From the NCBI GenBank assembly GCA_005888335.1, contig VAWY01000032.1, positions 1 through 64,000 of the forward strand: a stretch of 64,000 nt of DNA, given 5' to 3'. Under the pieces are notes generated by a model, which saw only the letters and a program-made list of their open reading frames with translations, made no database searches and was not told the origin of the DNA. Position numbers and translations under genes: made by a program. Shown piece by piece: positions 37,628 through 43,745 of the stretch (position 1 is its first letter; the number at the start of each line of letters is the position of its first letter). The DNA is from Actinomycetota bacterium (GTDB lineage Bacteria > Actinomycetota > Thermoleophilia > Solirubrobacterales > Solirubrobacteraceae).

Positions 37628-38860
37628 GTGCGCCTGCTCCAGCCGTTCCGCCGCCGCGACTTCGCCGTGCTCTGGCTCGGCCAGGCGACGTCGCTGGTCG
37701 GCGACGGCATCTTCGTGGTGGCCATCACGTTCCAGATCCTCGAGCTGCGCAACTCGCCCGGCGCGCTGTCGGTGGTGATGCTGGCCGGCTCGGTCGGGCT
37801 CGTCGCCTGCCTGCTGGCGGGCGGCGTGGTCAGCGACCGCGTCGAGCGCCGGCGCGTGCTGATCGCGTCGGACCTCGTGCGCCTCGCCGCCGTGGCGGGC
37901 ATCGGCGCGCTCTCGGTGGCCGGCGCGCTCGAGGTCTGGCACGCCGTGGCGCTCATGCTGGTCTACGGCGCCGGCGAGGCGTTCTTCCAGCCGGCCTTCG
38001 GCGCCCTGCTGCCGGCCGTGGTGCCGGCCGAGGAGCTCGTGCAAGCCAACGCCGTCCACGGCGTCGTGCGGCCGCTGGCCCTGCGCTTCGCCGGGCCCGC
38101 GCTCGGCGGGGTGCTCGTCGCCGCCGCCGGCGCCGGGCCGGCCCTGCTGGCCGACGCCGCGACCTTCGGCGTGTCCGCGGCGTGCGTCTTCGGGCTGCGC
38201 GCGCGGTCATGGGCCGGGGTGGAGCCCGAGGGCGCGCGGCGCGAGCTGGCGGCGGGGTGGCGGTACGTGCGCTCGCAGCCGTGGCTGTGGGCGACGCTGG
38301 CCTCGGCCGGTCTCGCCGTGCTGTTCGTCCTCGGCCCGTTCCAGGTCCTGCTCCCCTACCTCATCCGCAACGACCTCGGCGGCGACGCCGGCACGTACGG
38401 CGCGGTCCTCGCGGTCAGCGGCCTCGGGGCCGTGACCGCCGCCGCGCTCGTCGGCCAGGTCGGCCTCGGACGGCGGCCGGTCTCGCTCATGTACGCCGTC
38501 TGGTCGGTCTCGCCGCTGGCGCTCTGCGGCTTCGCGGCGGCGACCGCGACGTGGCAGCTGCTGCCGCTCGCCGCCGCGGAAGGCGCGTGCCTGGCGGCGG
38601 GAAACGTCGTGTGGAGCACGCTCATGCAGACACGGGTTCCGCCCGCGCTGCTGGGTCGCGTCACGAGCGTCGACTTCCTCGCCTCGCTCGGGCTGACGCC
38701 GGTGTCCTACGCGCTCACCGCTCCGGCGGCCGCCGCGCTGGGCGCGTCGACCACCCTGGTCGCCGCCGGCCTGCTCGCCGCCGCCGCCGGGCTCGCCTTC
38801 TGGCCGCTCGCCGTGCGTCAGGCGCCCAGCGCGGCCAGATCGGCGGCGAACCCGGGGTAG
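37628..38860 (+). CDS. MFS transporter (MFS_3 / enterobactin-exporter-like)
   Basis: A 410-residue protein with 12 helices. The cytoplasmic loop after helix 2 is [19 protein letters not shown], the A-motif of the major facilitator family. [24 protein letters not shown] is typical of the MFS_3 (EntS-like) subgroup. It starts with GTG and runs against the minus-strand aromatic/cmk cluster, overlapping the aroA 3' end by 43 bp. Substrate unknown; a drug or metabolite exporter is likely. Confidence 0.85.
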
Positions 38861-40110
38861 CTGATCGCCGCCGCGTCCATCCCGACGACCTCGACGCCCT
38901 CGCGCGAGGCCAGGCCGGCGACCGCGCCGAGCATGGCCAGCCGGTGGTCGCCACACGAGTCGAGCACCCCGCCGCGCAGCCCGCCCGTGCCGCGCACGAC
39001 GAAGCCGTCGTCGGTCGCCTCGGCGTCGCCGCCCAGCCCACGCAGGCCGTCGACGACGGCGGCGATCCGGTCGGACTCCTTGAGGCGCAGCTCGGCGGCG
39101 CCGCGCACGACGGTCTCGCCCTCGGCGAAGCAGCCGAGCAGGCCGACGAGCGGCAGCTCGTCGATGGCCAGCGGCACCTCGCCGGGCTCGACGGTGGTGC
39201 CGACGAGCGGGGCGGCGGTGACGTCGAGGTCGCTCACCGGCTCGTGCGGGATGACCTGCTCGTCGTCGGGCTCCTCGAGGTCGCCGACGACGATGGCGCC
39301 CATGCGCTCCACGATGCGCAGAAACCCGGCGCGCGTCCAGTTGACGCCGACGCCGCGCAGCAGCAGGCGCGACTGCGGGACGAGCAGCCCGGCGGCGACG
39401 TGGAAGGCCGCCGAGCTCAGGTCGCCCGGGATGTCGATGACCTCGAGCCCGAGCTCGTCGCAGTTCAGGACGGTGACGTGGCGGCCGTTGCGCCGCACGG
39501 TCGCCCCGCCGGCGACGAGCAGGCGCTCGGTGTGGTCGCGGCTGTGGGCCGGCTCGGTCACCGTGGTGGCGCCGTCGGCGGACAGGCCGGCGAGCAGCAC
39601 GCACGACTTGACCTGCGCGCTGGCGACCGGCAGCTCGTGGTGGGCCGAGCGCAGGTGCGCCCCGTAGACGGTGAACGGCGCGAAGCGCCCCTCGCGCGCG
39701 ACCACGCGCGCGCCCATGCGCTCCAGCGGCTCGGCGATGCGGTCGACCGGGCGCCGGCGGATCGACTCGTCGCCGTCGAGCGTGTACGCGCGGCCCTCCT
39801 GCCCGGCGAGCCAGCCGGGCAGCAGCCGCAGCAGCGTCCCGGCGTTGCCGACGTCGATCGGCAGCGACGGCTCGCGCGCCTCGCGCATGCCGCTGCCGCG
39901 GACGACGAGCTCGTCCGGGCGCTCCTCGACCAGCGTGCCGAGCGCGCGCACCGCGTTGAGCGTCGAGTTCGTGTCGGCGGCGTCGAGGTAGTTGCGGATG
40001 CGGACCGGCTCGTCGCCCATCGCGGCGACGATCGCCGCGCGGTGCGACAGCGACTTGTCGGGCGGCGGCGTCAGCTCGCCGCGCAGGCGGGTGGCCGGGG
40101 CGAAGCGCAT
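38818..40110 (-). CDS. aroA: 3-phosphoshikimate 1-carboxyvinyltransferase (EPSP synthase)
   Basis: AroA, 430 residues, is step six of the shikimate pathway. PPDKSLSHRAAIVAAM (catalytic Lys), VGNAGTLLRLLPGWLAGQ, DGDESIRRRPVDRIAEPL, ASAQVKSCVLLAGL, AIDELPLVGLLGCFAEG, ELRLKESDRIAAV and CGDHRLAM are all present. The ATG shares a base with the tyrA stop (TGATG). Motif details alone do not tell me the inhibitor sensitivity class. Confidence 0.97.
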   Translation of the reverse strand: MRFAPATRLRGELTPPPDKSLSHRAAIVAAMGDEPVRIRNYLDAADTNSTLNAVRALGTLVEERPDELVVRGSGMREAREPSLPIDVGNAGTLLRLLPGWLAGQEGRAYTLDGDESIRRRPVDRIAEPLERMGARVVAREGRFAPFTVYGAHLRSAHHELPVASAQVKSCVLLAGLSADGATTVTEPAHSRDHTERLLVAGGATVRRNGRHVTVLNCDELGLEVIDIPGDLSSAAFHVAAGLLVPQSRLLLRGVGVNWTRAGFLRIVERMGAIVVGDLEEPDDEQVIPHEPVSDLDVTAAPLVGTTVEPGEVPLAIDELPLVGLLGCFAEGETVVRGAAELRLKESDRIAAVVDGLRGLGGDAEATDDGFVVRGTGGLRGGVLDSCGDHRLAMLGAVAGLASREGVEVVGMDAAAISYPGFAADLAALGA

Positions 40111-41111
40111 CAGAGCTCGCGCACCAGCGCCTGCGCGCGCTCGTAGTCGGCCTCGGGGACCCAGAGCGCGATCTCGCCGCGGGTGTTGTCGGGCGCCGGG
40201 GTCAGGCTCATGTCGGAGATGTTGATGCCCGCGCGGCCGAGGGCAAGGGTCAGCTCGGCGACCACCCCCGGCCGGTTGGGCACCGGGACGCGCAGCTCGC
40301 GCGTCGGGCCGGTGTGCAGGGCGGCCTGCACGAGCGCCTCGCGGCGCGCGGCGGCGGCCGCCTGCCAGCGCGCCAGCGCGTCGCGATCGCCGCTGTCGAG
40401 CGCCGCGCGGACCTCGCCCAGGCGCTCGGCGGCGGCGTCGAGCTGCGCGCTCAGCGCGTCGCGGTTGGCGAGCAGGATGTCCGGCCACAGCCCCGGGTTG
40501 GCGCCGGCGACGCGCGTGGCGTCGCGGAAGCTCGGGCCGATCGCGGGCTCGCCGAGCGCCGCGGCCTGCTCGACGAGCACGTTGGCCACCACGTGGGGCA
40601 GGTGCGAGACCGTGGCCATGAGCCGGTCGTGCAGGCCGGCATCGATGGTGACGGGGCGGGCGCCGAGGTCGGACACGAAGCGATAGAGGCGGTCGAGCAG
40701 CACGCCGGAGCTGCGCGGCGTGGGCACGAGGTACCACGTCGCGCCGTCGAAGAGGTCCTCGCGGGCGTGCTCGACGCCGCCGAGCTCGGAGCCGGCCAGC
40801 GGGTGGCCGCCGACGAAGCGCTCGTCGTCGCGCATGGCCACGCGCTTGGCCGAGCCGACGTCGGTGACGCCGCACGCCGCCGGGGCGGCCTCCAGCACCG
40901 CGTCGAGCGTCGCCGGCAGCACGCCCAGCGGCGTGGCCACGACCGCGACGTCGGCGCCGTCGAGCGCCTCGCCCACCGACGCGCATGCCTCGTCGAGCAC
41001 CGCCGCCGCCTCGGGCCGCGGGTCGACGCCGCGGACGACGGCGCCGGCGCGGCGGGCGGCCAGCGCGACCGACCCGCCGATCAGCCCGACGCCGACGACG
41101 GCGACTCTCAG
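40110..41111 (-). CDS. tyrA: Prephenate dehydrogenase with ACT domain (probable CTG start)
   Basis: TyrA, 333 residues, makes 4-hydroxyphenylpyruvate for tyrosine. The Rossmann motif VAVVGVGLIGGSVALAARR requires translation upstream of the first standard start (41000). The only start next to it is CTG 41111-41109, which overlaps the aroF stop as CTGA. GGHPLAGSELGGVEHA and SHLPHVVANVLVEQAA mark the catalytic domain. The C-terminal ACT domain (RVPVPNRPGVVAELTLALGR) suggests feedback control by an amino acid. It is coupled to aroF and aroA. Confidence 0.92.
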   Translation of the reverse strand: MRVAVVGVGLIGGSVALAARRAGAVVRGVDPRPEAAAVLDEACASVGEALDGADVAVVATPLGVLPATLDAVLEAAPAACGVTDVGSAKRVAMRDDERFVGGHPLAGSELGGVEHAREDLFDGATWYLVPTPRSSGVLLDRLYRFVSDLGARPVTIDAGLHDRLMATVSHLPHVVANVLVEQAAALGEPAIGPSFRDATRVAGANPGLWPDILLANRDALSAQLDAAAERLGEVRAALDSGDRDALARWQAAAAARREALVQAALHTGPTRELRVPVPNRPGVVAELTLALGRAGINISDMSLTPAPDNTRGEIALWVPEADYERAQALVREL

Positions 41112-42136
41112 GCGCCGACTCCGACGACCTTGCCCGCCACGGCCGCCGCCGCCTCGACCCGCGCCGCGTAGACGGCGAAGTCATCGGTGCGGATGGCCTG
41201 CGGGCCGTCGCAGATGGCCTCCTCGGGCGCCGGGTGCGTCTCGACGATGATCCCGTCCGCGCCGGCGGCCGCCGCGGCGAGCGACAGCGGCGTGACGAGA
41301 TCGCGCCGCCCGGCCGCGTGGCTGGGATCGACGATGACCGGCAGGTGCGAGAGCTCCTTGAGCACCGGTACCGCCGTGATGTCGAGCGTGAAGCGGTACG
41401 AGCCCTCGAACGTGCGGATCCCGCGCTCGCAGAGCATCACGTTCGGGTTGCCCTCCTTGAGGACGTACTCGGCGCTCATCAGCAGCTCCTCGAGCGTGGC
41501 CGACAGCCCGCGCTTGAGCAGGACCGGTACGCCGGAGCGGCCGATCTCGGTGAGCAGCGTGTAGTTCTGCATGTTGCGCGCGCCGACCTGGAAGACGTCG
41601 GCGACCTCGGCGACGGCCTCGATGTCGCGGACGTCCATCAGCTCGGTGACGATCGGCAGGCCGGTCTGCGCCTTGGCCTCTTCGAGCAGTCGCAGCCCCT
41701 CCTGGCCGAGGCCCTGGAACGAGTACGGCGACGTGCGCGGCTTGTACGCGCCGCCGCGGTACATCGCCGCGCCGGCCGACGCGACTGCGTGCGCGGCGGT
41801 CAGCACCTGGTCGCGCGACTCGACGGTGCACGGGCCGGCGATCAGCGTGAAGTGGTCGCCGCCGACGCTGCGGCCGGCGATGTCGAGCACGCTGGGCCGG
41901 CCGCCGGTCACCTGGGCGGAGGCCAGCTTGTAGGGCTTGAGGATCGGCACGACGTGGTCGACGCCGCGCATCGCGTCGGGCTCGATGCGGGCGACGTGCT
42001 CGCGGTCGCCGATCGCGCCGATGAGCGTCAGCTCCTCGCCGCGCGACACGTGGACGCGCGCGCCGGCGCTCTCTACTCGCTCGATGACGGCCGCGATGTC
42101 GTCATCGGTGGCCGTCTGCTTCATCACAATCAACAT
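41108..42136 (-). CDS. aroF: 3-deoxy-7-phosphoheptulonate (DAHP) synthase, type I-beta
   Basis: The entry enzyme of the shikimate pathway, 342 residues. An N-terminal ferredoxin-like regulatory domain ([20 protein letters not shown]), as in Thermotoga-type enzymes, precedes the barrel: [59 protein letters not shown], and [14 protein letters not shown]. The metal ligands (Cys in GPC, His in PSH) are present. It lies just after a leader-peptide attenuator, so its transcription is probably tied to aromatic aminoacyl-tRNA supply. The Shine-Dalgarno AAGGA is rather far (12 nt). Confidence 0.96.
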
Positions 42137-42185
42137 GGGAGATCCGGGTCCTTGGTACGGGCGTTCAACGGGGAGCTGGTGATGA

Positions 42186-42228
42186 GCGCCCGGCTAGCCG
42201 ACCTGGTCGGCAAGGTGCGGCCGGACGC
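42186..42228 (-). terminator. Attenuator terminator stem upstream of aroF
   Basis: On the minus-strand RNA, GCGUCCGGC (42228-42220) pairs with GCCGGGCGC (42194-42186) over nine base pairs with one G-U. It encloses a perfect hairpin GCCGAC/GUCGGC (42211-42197, CUG/CAG loop). The 5' arm begins three bases after the leader stop codon. No U-run follows, so it would need factor help or act as a pausing/translation-blocking structure. Confidence 0.6.
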
Positions 42229-42247
42229 CTAGCGAAATCGCCAGGCG
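42226..42247 (-). promoter_or_regulatory. Antiterminator hairpin overlapping the end of the leader ORF
   Basis: CGCCUGGCG and CGCUAGGCG form a nine-base-pair stem (one G-U) with an AUUU loop. It spans leader codons 15 to stop plus four bases and shares three bases with the 5' arm of the terminator stem. A separate perfect 8-bp pairing, GCGUAGCC (42289-42282) with GGCUACGC (42258-42251), covers codons 1-14. That one would be opened by a ribosome on the Phe codons. Confidence 0.6.
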
Positions 42248-42291
42248 AACGCGTAGCCGAAGGCAAAGAAGCTGTGGGTCTGGCTACGCAT
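42229..42291 (-). CDS. Aromatic leader peptide (attenuator of aroF-tyrA-aroA)
   Basis: A 21-codon ORF reading MRSQTHSFFAFGYAFAWRFR. Seven of 20 residues are aromatic (Phe8, 9, 11, 15, 19; Tyr13; Trp17). It lies between hisC and aroF, starts with ATG 13 bp after the hisC stop, and is followed by the hairpins described above. An AGGG sits upstream as a weak ribosome-binding site. By analogy with pheL/trpL-type leaders, ribosome stalling on Phe (also Tyr/Trp) codons would let the antiterminator form. Phe-rich leaders upstream of DAHP synthase genes are known in other actinobacteria. Confidence 0.8.
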   Translation of the reverse strand: MRSQTHSFFAFGYAFAWRFR

Positions 42292-42303
42292 GTTCGCGCG
42301 ACC

Positions 42304-43380
42304 CTACAGCAAGTCACGGAGCGCGTGCAGAAACCTGTCGTTCTGGGCCGCCGTGCCGTAGGTGACCCGCAGCGCCCCCGGCTTGCCCAGCGCGCTGCCC
42401 GCCCGGACCAGCACGCCGCGCTCGGACAGGCCGCGGACCACGTCGTCCTCGACCTCCGGACTGGGCAGGTCGAACCAGGCGAAGTTGGCCTGCGACTCGG
42501 CCGGCTCCAGGCCGAGGTCGCGCAGGCCCGCGTCGATCTGCAGGCGCCGGGCGACGTTGCGCTCGACGCGCTCGGCCACCTCGTCCTGGTGGCGCAGCGC
42601 CTCGAGCGCCGCCGCCTGCGCGGCCGCGTTGCAGAAGAACGGCTGGCGGACCTGGTCGACGGCGCGCTTGAACTCCGCCGAGCCGCAGAGCCCGAAGCCG
42701 ACACGCAGGCCGCAGAGCCCGTAGACCTTCGAGAACGTCCGCAGCAGGACCAGGTTGGGGAACTGCGGCAGCAGGTCGAGCGTCGCGTCGGGGTCGTCGA
42801 GCAGGTTGAACTCGCAGTAGGCCTCGTCGAGGATCACGGCGACGTGTCGCGGGACGCGCTCGAGGAAGGCGCCGATCTCCTCGACGGAGACCGCCGTGGA
42901 GGTCGGGTTGTTCGGGTTGCAGACGACGACCAGGCGGGTGGCGACGGTGATCTCGGTGGCCATCGCGTCGAGGTCGTGCCGCTCGCGCTCGTCGAGCCCG
43001 ACGACGATCGCCCGCGCGCCCGAGGCCGCGGCGAGGTGCGGGTAGACGCTGAAGCTCGGCCACGCGTAGACCAGCTCGGCGCCGGGCTCGAGCAGCGCCT
43101 CGCCGGCGGCGAGCAGCACGTCGCACGAGCCGTTGCCCAGGGCGATGCGCTCGGCGGGGACGCCGTAGCGGTCGGCGAGCACGCGGCGCAGCTTCGTGCC
43201 CGCGGGGTCGGGATAGCGGTTGAGCGTCGGCAGTGCGCGCGTGATGGCGTCGATCACCGCCGGGAGCGGCGGGTCGGGCGTCTCGTTGGAGGCCATCAGC
43301 GCCACGTCCTCGGGCAGCTGGTAGCCGCCGGCGACGGGATAGACCGGGATGCGCCGGATGCGCTCGGAGAACTCGATCAC
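42304..43380 (-). CDS. hisC: Histidinol-phosphate/aromatic aminotransferase
   Basis: A 358-residue class I/II PLP aminotransferase of the HisC family: LMASNETPDPPLPAV, LNRYPDPAGTKLRRVLA, LGNGSCDVLL, VVCNPNNPTSTAV, ILDEAYCEF (Asp/Tyr for PLP) and RTFSKVYGLCGLRVGF (Schiff-base Lys). Sitting between chorismate mutase and DAHP synthase, it most likely transaminates phenylpyruvate or hydroxyphenylpyruvate. HisC-like enzymes can serve either pathway. The GTG overlaps the aroH stop (GTGA). Confidence 0.88.
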   Translation of the reverse strand: MIEFSERIRRIPVYPVAGGYQLPEDVALMASNETPDPPLPAVIDAITRALPTLNRYPDPAGTKLRRVLADRYGVPAERIALGNGSCDVLLAAGEALLEPGAELVYAWPSFSVYPHLAAASGARAIVVGLDERERHDLDAMATEITVATRLVVVCNPNNPTSTAVSVEEIGAFLERVPRHVAVILDEAYCEFNLLDDPDATLDLLPQFPNLVLLRTFSKVYGLCGLRVGFGLCGSAEFKRAVDQVRQPFFCNAAAQAAALEALRHQDEVAERVERNVARRLQIDAGLRDLGLEPAESQANFAWFDLPSPEVEDDVVRGLSERGVLVRAGSALGKPGALRVTYGTAAQNDRFLHALRDLL

Positions 43381-43745
43381 TGGGCGGCCTCCAGGTCGGA
43401 GCGCAGGCCGCGCGCGTCGCCGAGGTAGACGTGCTTGGTCTCGTGCTCGTCGTCGGCGTAGTAGTGCATGAGCACGCGGATCACGCGGGGAAGCGAGCCC
43501 GGCACCGGGATCTCGCGGGCGCACAGCAGCGGCACGCGGTTGAGGCCGAGCCGGCGCGCGGCCACGGCGGGGAACTCGGCGTTGAGGTCATCGGTCAGCG
43601 TGAAGATGCAGCTGACCACGTTGTCAACCTCGAGTGCGTTTCGCTTCATGATCTCGCGCATGAGCCACTCCGTCGCCCCAACGATCGCCTCGGCCTCGTT
43701 GCGGTCGACAGTCGTGGCCCCGCGCAGGGCGTGGAGCCGGGCCAT
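43377..43745 (-). CDS. aroH: Chorismate mutase, AroH type
   Basis: A 122-residue monofunctional chorismate mutase of the Bacillus AroH (trimeric barrel) class. It has LHALRGATTVDRNEAEAIVG, CIFTLTDDLNAEFPAVAARR and VPLLCAREIPVPGSLPRVIRVLMHYY, with the active-site Arg, Glu and Cys positions typical of the class. It directs chorismate to prephenate for tyrA. The 5' end overlaps, head to head, the start of the lipoprotein gene on the other strand by 32 bp. Confidence 0.94.
   Translation of the reverse strand: MARLHALRGATTVDRNEAEAIVGATEWLMREIMKRNALEVDNVVSCIFTLTDDLNAEFPAVAARRLGLNRVPLLCAREIPVPGSLPRVIRVLMHYYADDEHETKHVYLGDARGLRSDLEAAQ

Follow-up and report, generated by a model that had tools for sequence, protein, structure and literature searches.

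A conserved aromatic leader with a near-invariant core upstream of DAHP synthase genes in Solirubrobacterales and relatives

The gap between hisC and aroF in a 64,000-nucleotide (nt) stretch of DNA from a Solirubrobacteraceae bacterium (contig VAWY01000032.1; this whole stretch is called the window below) holds a short open reading frame (ORF) rich in aromatic codons, followed by hairpins. Comparison with related loci suggests that it is a conserved cis-acting leader, which probably controls 3-deoxy-D-arabino-heptulosonate 7-phosphate (DAHP) synthase by translational attenuation, through sequestration of the Shine-Dalgarno sequence. We favour this reading over the Phe-specific terminator proposed in the initial annotation of the window; the gene regulated is presumed to be aroF. 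Two observations go beyond that annotation: an invariant nucleotide core at the end of the ORF, and a pairing, detected at the level of the group, between leader codons and the Shine-Dalgarno region. For this branch of the Actinomycetota, on which few studies exist, the leader is a well-delimited regulatory feature, open to testing, at the point where the shikimate pathway begins.

The leader and its near-invariant end

42229..42291, minus strand: leader ORF, MRSQTHSFFAFGYAFAWRFR followed by a stop codon, 20 residues
42226..42243, minus strand: near-invariant element, TGGCGATTTCGCTAGGCG

As first annotated, the leader ORF of the window encodes 5 Phe, 1 Tyr and 1 Trp among its 20 residues, the aromatic codons being at positions 8, 9, 11, 13, 15, 17 and 19. 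Taken alone, the window is weak evidence for a leader, because the fold of the hisC–aroF gap only modestly beats that of shuffled sequences (z −2.16; 6/200 shuffles as good). Relatives were gathered by one protein scan of named genomes and by a class-wide search over 299 genomes. The close named relatives are mostly Solirubrobacterales, with a short ORF of the same ending upstream of their aroF genes, and the name that we give to the group rests on loci from named genomes. A search for the strings CTAGGCG or TGGCGNTT in the loci fetched by protein similarity located the element in 16 of the 19 loci L001–L019 and in 28 of the 30 loci L081–L110 (L085, L089 and L103 repeat L003, L004 and L008). 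In the five loci that lack it, no alternative aromatic leader was found when an ORF ending within 420 nt had to have 4 or more aromatic residues among 12 codons. Across the class, the pattern TGGCGATTTNNCTAGGCG with at most one mismatch occurs in 80/299 genomes, two of which have two sites and 78 a single one; the same pattern reversed is matched in 9/299. Pooling the sites of all searches and removing duplicates left 99 sites that differ from the consensus at no more than two positions. A DAHP synthase gene lies downstream of all 90 sites with at most one mismatch, which bears out the association of leader and enzyme in the initial annotation, and of three of the nine sites with two mismatches; the other six lack it. 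Five two-mismatch sites with no DAHP synthase downstream (L111, L141, L142, L153 and L160) were set aside as chance matches.

The consensus of the element, TGG CGA TTT ANC TAG GCG, reads W-R-F-x-stop at the end of the leader ORF, and this ending is found in 90 of the 93 leaders that precede a DAHP synthase. CGATTT is present in 41/41 distinct element sites among the loci found by protein similarity. In the wider set, CGATTT and the stop TAG are present in 90/90 sites, which is so partly by construction, since matching the motif, one mismatch being allowed, was one of the ways in which its sites were gathered. The core is unchanged where Tyr (L093) or Pro (L098) stands in place of Trp, and the last sense codon of the leader is variable (AGC, ATC, CGC, ACC, AGT, ATG), with changes of the amino acid too. 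In six genes of the window, CGA makes up 4 of the 155 Arg codons and TTT 2 of the 40 Phe codons. The lack of synonymous variation at CGA, TTT and TAG argues for selection on the RNA (or DNA) and not on the peptide. That CGA-TTT is invariant inside a GC-rich leader raises the question of what reads this RNA.

Upstream of the element, the 90 sites share aromatic codons in one frame. From codon −1 to codon −9 before the Trp codon, the aromatic share is 38, 53, 58, 34, 28, 20, 23, 12 and 23%; further upstream it is 0–12%, and in the other two frames the same nine codons give 0–16%. Because of this conservation in a single frame, we regard the leader as beyond chance: an ORF with codons for products of the pathway precedes the gene at the 90 sites, as expected of an attenuator. 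The 12 codons before the Trp codon hold 166 Tyr, 62 Phe and 47 Trp codons in total. Since Tyr codons outnumber the others, the Phe-rich form of the window is local, and the Phe-specific sensing first proposed is not borne out. Directly before the Trp codon, Tyr is encoded 24 times by TAT and 7 times by TAC; in the six window genes, by contrast, TAC accounts for 28/33 Tyr codons.

A Shine-Dalgarno match of at least four letters precedes 27 of the 90 leader ORFs; the other 63 lack one, and none was found for the window ORF. A sigma-70-like promoter (a −35-like hexamer and TGYTAYAA at fitting spacing) lies between hisC and the leader at 20/90 sites, with no match in shuffles and 0/62 in a control region in hisC, the pattern having been chosen after the enriched 8-mer had been seen. 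A stricter general promoter scan gave no excess over shuffles. If the promoter is right, the transcript would begin near the leader start, which fits the missing four-letter match in the 63 leaders.

Among 386 genomes of the phylum, an RNA model of the element (R1) gave 11 strong matches (E-value 1.2e-6 or lower) and one match in genome G011, all in genomes of the class sample. Ten more genomes had weak matches (E-value 0.005–0.1); four of these ten were examined, and their loci (L225–L228) were dropped since the long ORFs there start like other genes. An exact 15-letter search over 396 phylum genomes gave an agreeing picture, with a match in 12, of which 10 are from the class sample. The G011 locus (L119, the same as L224) has hisC, a decayed element (ending WRFV, with TTC for TTT and few aromatic codons) and tyrA, and no aroF. 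As the decayed element still scores 34 bits with the RNA model, this single case is possibly a relic of aroF loss, the element decaying once the synthase gene is gone. No aromatic leader was found by the same criterion in 22 of 24 more distant aroF relatives (55–65% identity); the other two, L193 and L198, have one that is unrelated to the element. The ORF of L193 ends FSVFYWR just upstream of the ATG, its last codons overlapping the Shine-Dalgarno sequence; it is perhaps an independent aromatic leader, or due to chance.

Hairpins and pairing with the Shine-Dalgarno region

42185..42229, minus strand: hairpin P2, GGCGUCCGGC/GCCGGGCGCU, from the G of the leader stop codon, with an inner hairpin
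42226..42247, minus strand: hairpin P1, CGCCUGGCG-AUUU-CGCUAGGCG
42251..42289, minus strand: stem of 8 base pairs (bp) within the leader ORF, GCGUAGCC/GGCUACGC
42149..42153, minus strand: Shine-Dalgarno-like AAGGA of aroF, in the region that pairs with aromatic leader codons in relatives (group test)
42252..42263, minus strand: candidate 5' strand of the base stem in the window, CCUUCGGCUACG, codons 10–14
42150..42159, minus strand: partner of CCUUCGGCUACG, CGUACCAAGG; the duplex is not individually significant

The three pairings listed in the initial annotation can all be read in the window, and the last two share bases, as it said. P1 (9 bp, one G-U) and P2 are mutually exclusive, GGCG being common to both, and the 8-bp stem is also present in the minimum-energy fold. 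P2 had been given as 9 bp starting 3 nt after the stop codon; the stem stands, and can be drawn with 10 bp, two of them G-U, from the G of the stop codon itself. We aligned the window with 52 of 59 sites that had been picked because their P2 arm was good and their leaders differed (alignment A1). In these 53 sites, 97.9% of the cells of P2 are paired and 38 cells have changed on both sides, values that none of 500 shuffles attained; on two weaker measures, 19 and 32 of the 500 did as well. Slid registers are paired at 35–51%, and RNAalifold recovers the same helix. Because of the preselection, A1 favours P2. Of 92 sites, 86 reach the arm score used and 48 reach a score of at least 10, against 6.5% of shuffles. 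In a retest, the 3' arm was located by its constant letters only, for which 79 of the 90 sites qualify (the window is among the 11 that do not). At two free positions, 144 of 158 cells are paired (permuted mean 125, highest of 5000 permutations 137), 110 of them by Watson-Crick pairs (permuted mean 73, highest 97). These comparisons show that P2, as a predicted helix, covaries and begins in the stop codon. The inner six pairs of P1 form in 78.3% of cells in relatives, with no covariation. This stem over the ORF end was therefore rejected as a proven structure; between relatives, the gap has conserved aromatic codons and compensatory changes in P2, not in P1. A shorter version of the 8-bp ORF stem can be drawn in the leader of L081.

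We then compared the leader from −24 to +6, relative to the Trp codon, with positions −24 to −2 of the synthase start, using refined start codons and keeping 73 of the 90 sites. The native partners pair at −15.02 kcal/mol and permuted ones at −13.09 kcal/mol (z −6.33). With strict dereplication, z is −3.55 (p 0.001, 43 sites), and −3.98 for 36 sites with the core type of the window. When a shorter stretch of the leader is used, z is −6.02, −3.46 and −3.96 for the same three sets; 14 control pairs of regions per set give z from −2.56 to +2.08. One early pairing test had permutation p-values of 0.002 and 0.0085. Examples of this base stem are GCUACGCCUGG with CCAGGCGUAGU in L095, CUACGCCUGG with CCAGGUGUAG in L081, UACUGG with CCAGUA in L130, and UGGUCCU with AGGACCA in L003 and L088. 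When the position of the ribosome was simulated by masking codons and the openness of the Shine-Dalgarno sequence predicted, masking codons −8 to +2 raised mean openness from 0.416 to at most 0.484, with an increase in 63–68% of the 73 sites. Masking codons −20 to −10 changed it by −0.04 to +0.01.

Proposed mechanism, synthase exchange and alternative readings

The mechanism that we propose is as follows. With ample charged aromatic tRNAs, the ribosome would run through the leader and leave; the base stem and P2 could then close, hiding the Shine-Dalgarno sequence, and little synthase would be made. If Tyr, Trp or Phe were short, the ribosome would stall on their codons and block the base stem, and the synthase would be translated. 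The core CGAUUUA, predicted to be mostly unpaired, would lie between the base stem and P2, in a strict role. This reading is supported by the aromatic codons, which lie within nine codons of the element and in one frame only, by the occurrence of the element nearly always once per genome, before DAHP synthases of three forms, by the covariation of P2, by the base-stem and masking results for the group, and by the lack of U-tracts.

Several points weigh against it. The model leaves the invariant core unexplained. Among the control pairs, p falls to 0.0055 and 0.0155 for two in the full set and to 0.021 for one in the dereplicated set, so that relatedness is not fully removed from the base-stem test. 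In an earlier pairing test, native partners had hardly any advantage over swapped ones. The base stem of the window is not above chance, since 57% of the compared regions pair better, and the predicted mean effect on openness is small. Masking in the window gave no clear switch: openness is 0.47 in the free leader, 0.37–0.58 with codons 6–22 masked and 0.17–0.23 with codons 3–5 masked. A warning also comes from the leuA leader of Actinobacteria, for which Seliverstov et al. (2005, PMC1262725) cite evidence that mutations of the leucine codons left regulation unaffected.

The genes around the leader, identified by family models, all lie on the same strand:

42304..43386 (start approximate), minus strand: hisC, the gene preceding the leader
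41108..42136, minus strand: aroF, DAHP synthase with an N-terminal ferredoxin-like domain (PRK08673, TIGR01361, PF00793, PF18152)
38818..41120 (tyrA start approximate), minus strand: aroA and tyrA, the next genes

The leader ORF starts 12 nt after the end of hisC (42304), and 92 nt separate its stop codon from the ATG of aroF (42136). The position after hisC, taken as unusual in the initial annotation, is common: hisC is upstream in 76/89 sites, including 26 of the 27 sites with an AroFGH-type synthase. That type is one of three forms found behind the leader, beside the window type with its ferredoxin-like domain and the same core without this domain. All three match the Pfam family DAHP_synth_1 and belong to different NCBIfam subfamilies (one or two examples of each were scanned). 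A tree of 57 HisC proteins, made by a quick method with no bootstrap, requires six switches among the three forms; between AroFGH and the other core it requires four, and well supported branches force each of these. In the simplest reading of this tree, hisC and the leader would have kept their place through at least four replacements of the enzyme behind them. A leader that persists unchanged when an enzyme from a distant subfamily takes over would amount to a natural experiment on how regulation outlives genes. One locus, L007, comes from a record titled Chlamydiae bacterium, yet its hisC groups with Solirubrobacterales loci; it is probably a misbinned contig. In L176 (genome G217), the leader stop TAG has become CAG, the ORF runs on, P1 is fully paired and the synthase downstream lacks the N-terminal domain.

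A more tentative proposal is that of a composite RNA regulator, in which the aromatic leader ORF is combined with the conserved core CGAUUUANCUAGGCG. This core would be read by the terminating ribosome, by a protein or through the binding of a ligand, and synthase output would then depend on a second signal besides tRNA charging. The same tentative proposal includes the idea of a module tied to the reaction and not to one gene, kept after hisC through at least four changes of synthase subfamily.

Partners of the core were sought within the RNA and beyond it, and three candidates were rejected. Pairing with the stretch after P2 shows no excess (z −1.1), and neither does pairing to 16S rRNA (−15.0, against shuffled means of −15.8 and −16.0); in two whole genomes there is no exact complementary copy other than the element itself. 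A TAGATT-like string lies about 30 nt before the aroF start in L086, L092, L096, L173 and others; it is compatible with a −10 box, and base pairing with the conserved GAUUUA of the core is possible too. It is rather unlikely, in our view, that the core has a protein of its own or a small molecule as its binding partner, in the manner of protein control or of a riboswitch, and that the leader peptide supplies a further input. The constancy of CGATTT in both sets of sites and of the TAG stop in the wider one would suit such binding, as would the AUUUA, which local folds leave largely unpaired (mean probability 0.77–0.96), and the lack of an exact complement or of excess 16S rRNA pairing. However, the P2 arms apart, the alignment offers no further conserved stretch that could complete a pocket, the wider set was partly chosen by motif, and the frame and aromatic codons show that translation matters.

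Less likely again is a classical transcription attenuator, with P2 or a downstream hairpin as the terminator and P1 as the alternative. A leader peptide with pathway codons, two exclusive hairpins and the description of the similar Corynebacterium glutamicum aroR leader as transcriptional in one review (PMC11802643) would fit it. However, a U-tract follows P2 at 0/84 sites, so that the caveat on this point in the initial annotation extends to the relatives and its terminator is not supported. Any hairpin with a U-tract between leader and start codon occurs at only 4/80 sites, and a terminator scan found no intrinsic terminator in 41900..42700 of the window. Moreover, P1 does not covary, and this explanation gives the Shine-Dalgarno pairing no role. 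In a variant of it, termination may be Rho-dependent or U-less. An arrest peptide of the TnaC type, whose nascent ...WRF(S/I/T/R) end would stall the ribosome at UAG, is very improbable: W-R-F-x-stop does end nearly all leaders before DAHP synthase, but selection on the peptide cannot explain the lack of synonymous variation at Arg, Phe and stop, Trp is replaced in L093 and L098, and the stop is lost in L176.

Comparison with known systems

No description of the element was found among the papers listed by the literature searches (open-licence full texts). Within the 64-kb window, no Rfam family reaches its gathering score, T-boxes, riboswitches and leaders included; the four Rfam matches in the area of the gap have E-values of 3.1 to 7.8 and lie far under their gathering scores.

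In translational attenuation of the erm/cat type, a ribosome stalled on the leader frees a hidden Shine-Dalgarno sequence. The mechanism proposed here is alike in this respect and differs in that the stall is assumed to come from amino acid shortage, not from an antibiotic, and in that the regulatory codons themselves would pair with the Shine-Dalgarno region. In the trpL/pheL attenuators, the position of the ribosome on the regulatory codons decides between RNA structures. This selection of a structure would also operate here, but there is no U-tract terminator, control seems to act at the start of translation, and codons for three different aromatic residues stand in one leader. Attenuation of the trpL/pheL type is summarised in PMC11802643.

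The closest known systems are the LEU element of actinobacterial leuA, in kind, and aroR of C. glutamicum, by gene. The aroR leader of aroF in C. glutamicum was reportedly described by Neshat et al. in 2014. As here, it precedes a DAHP synthase gene and is short and aromatic (Phe-Tyr-Phe); it responds when Phe is scarce, and a core element like ours is not mentioned in the passages on it in three papers (PMC4046766, PMC7356990, PMC11802643). Its control is transcriptional according to the passage in PMC11802643 and translational according to that in PMC7356990. The restriction of the strong R1 matches among the 386 phylum genomes to the class sample also sets our element apart from aroR.

The LEU element was described upstream of leuA in Actinobacteria by Seliverstov et al. 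(2005, PMC1262725), whose survey, in its passages on Phe and Tyr operons, reports no conserved RNA structure before them in the genomes used. The two elements differ in their codons and genes (leucine codons and leuA; here, aromatic codons and DAHP synthase) and in their inner structure, a pseudoknot in LEU and a long hairpin here, where no pseudoknot search was made. LEU has no conserved unpaired nucleotides according to its authors; here CGAUUUA is conserved, and its AUUUA is mostly unpaired. They are alike in their compact internal structure, with no terminator described for LEU in the passages on it in PMC1262725, and in a base stem between the regulatory codons and the Shine-Dalgarno box of the target gene, which we find in the group as a whole and not in the window individually. 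The likeness suggests that a terminator-free design is wider across actinobacteria, and it extends the base stem of the leuA type, between codons and Shine-Dalgarno sequence, to a second amino acid family.
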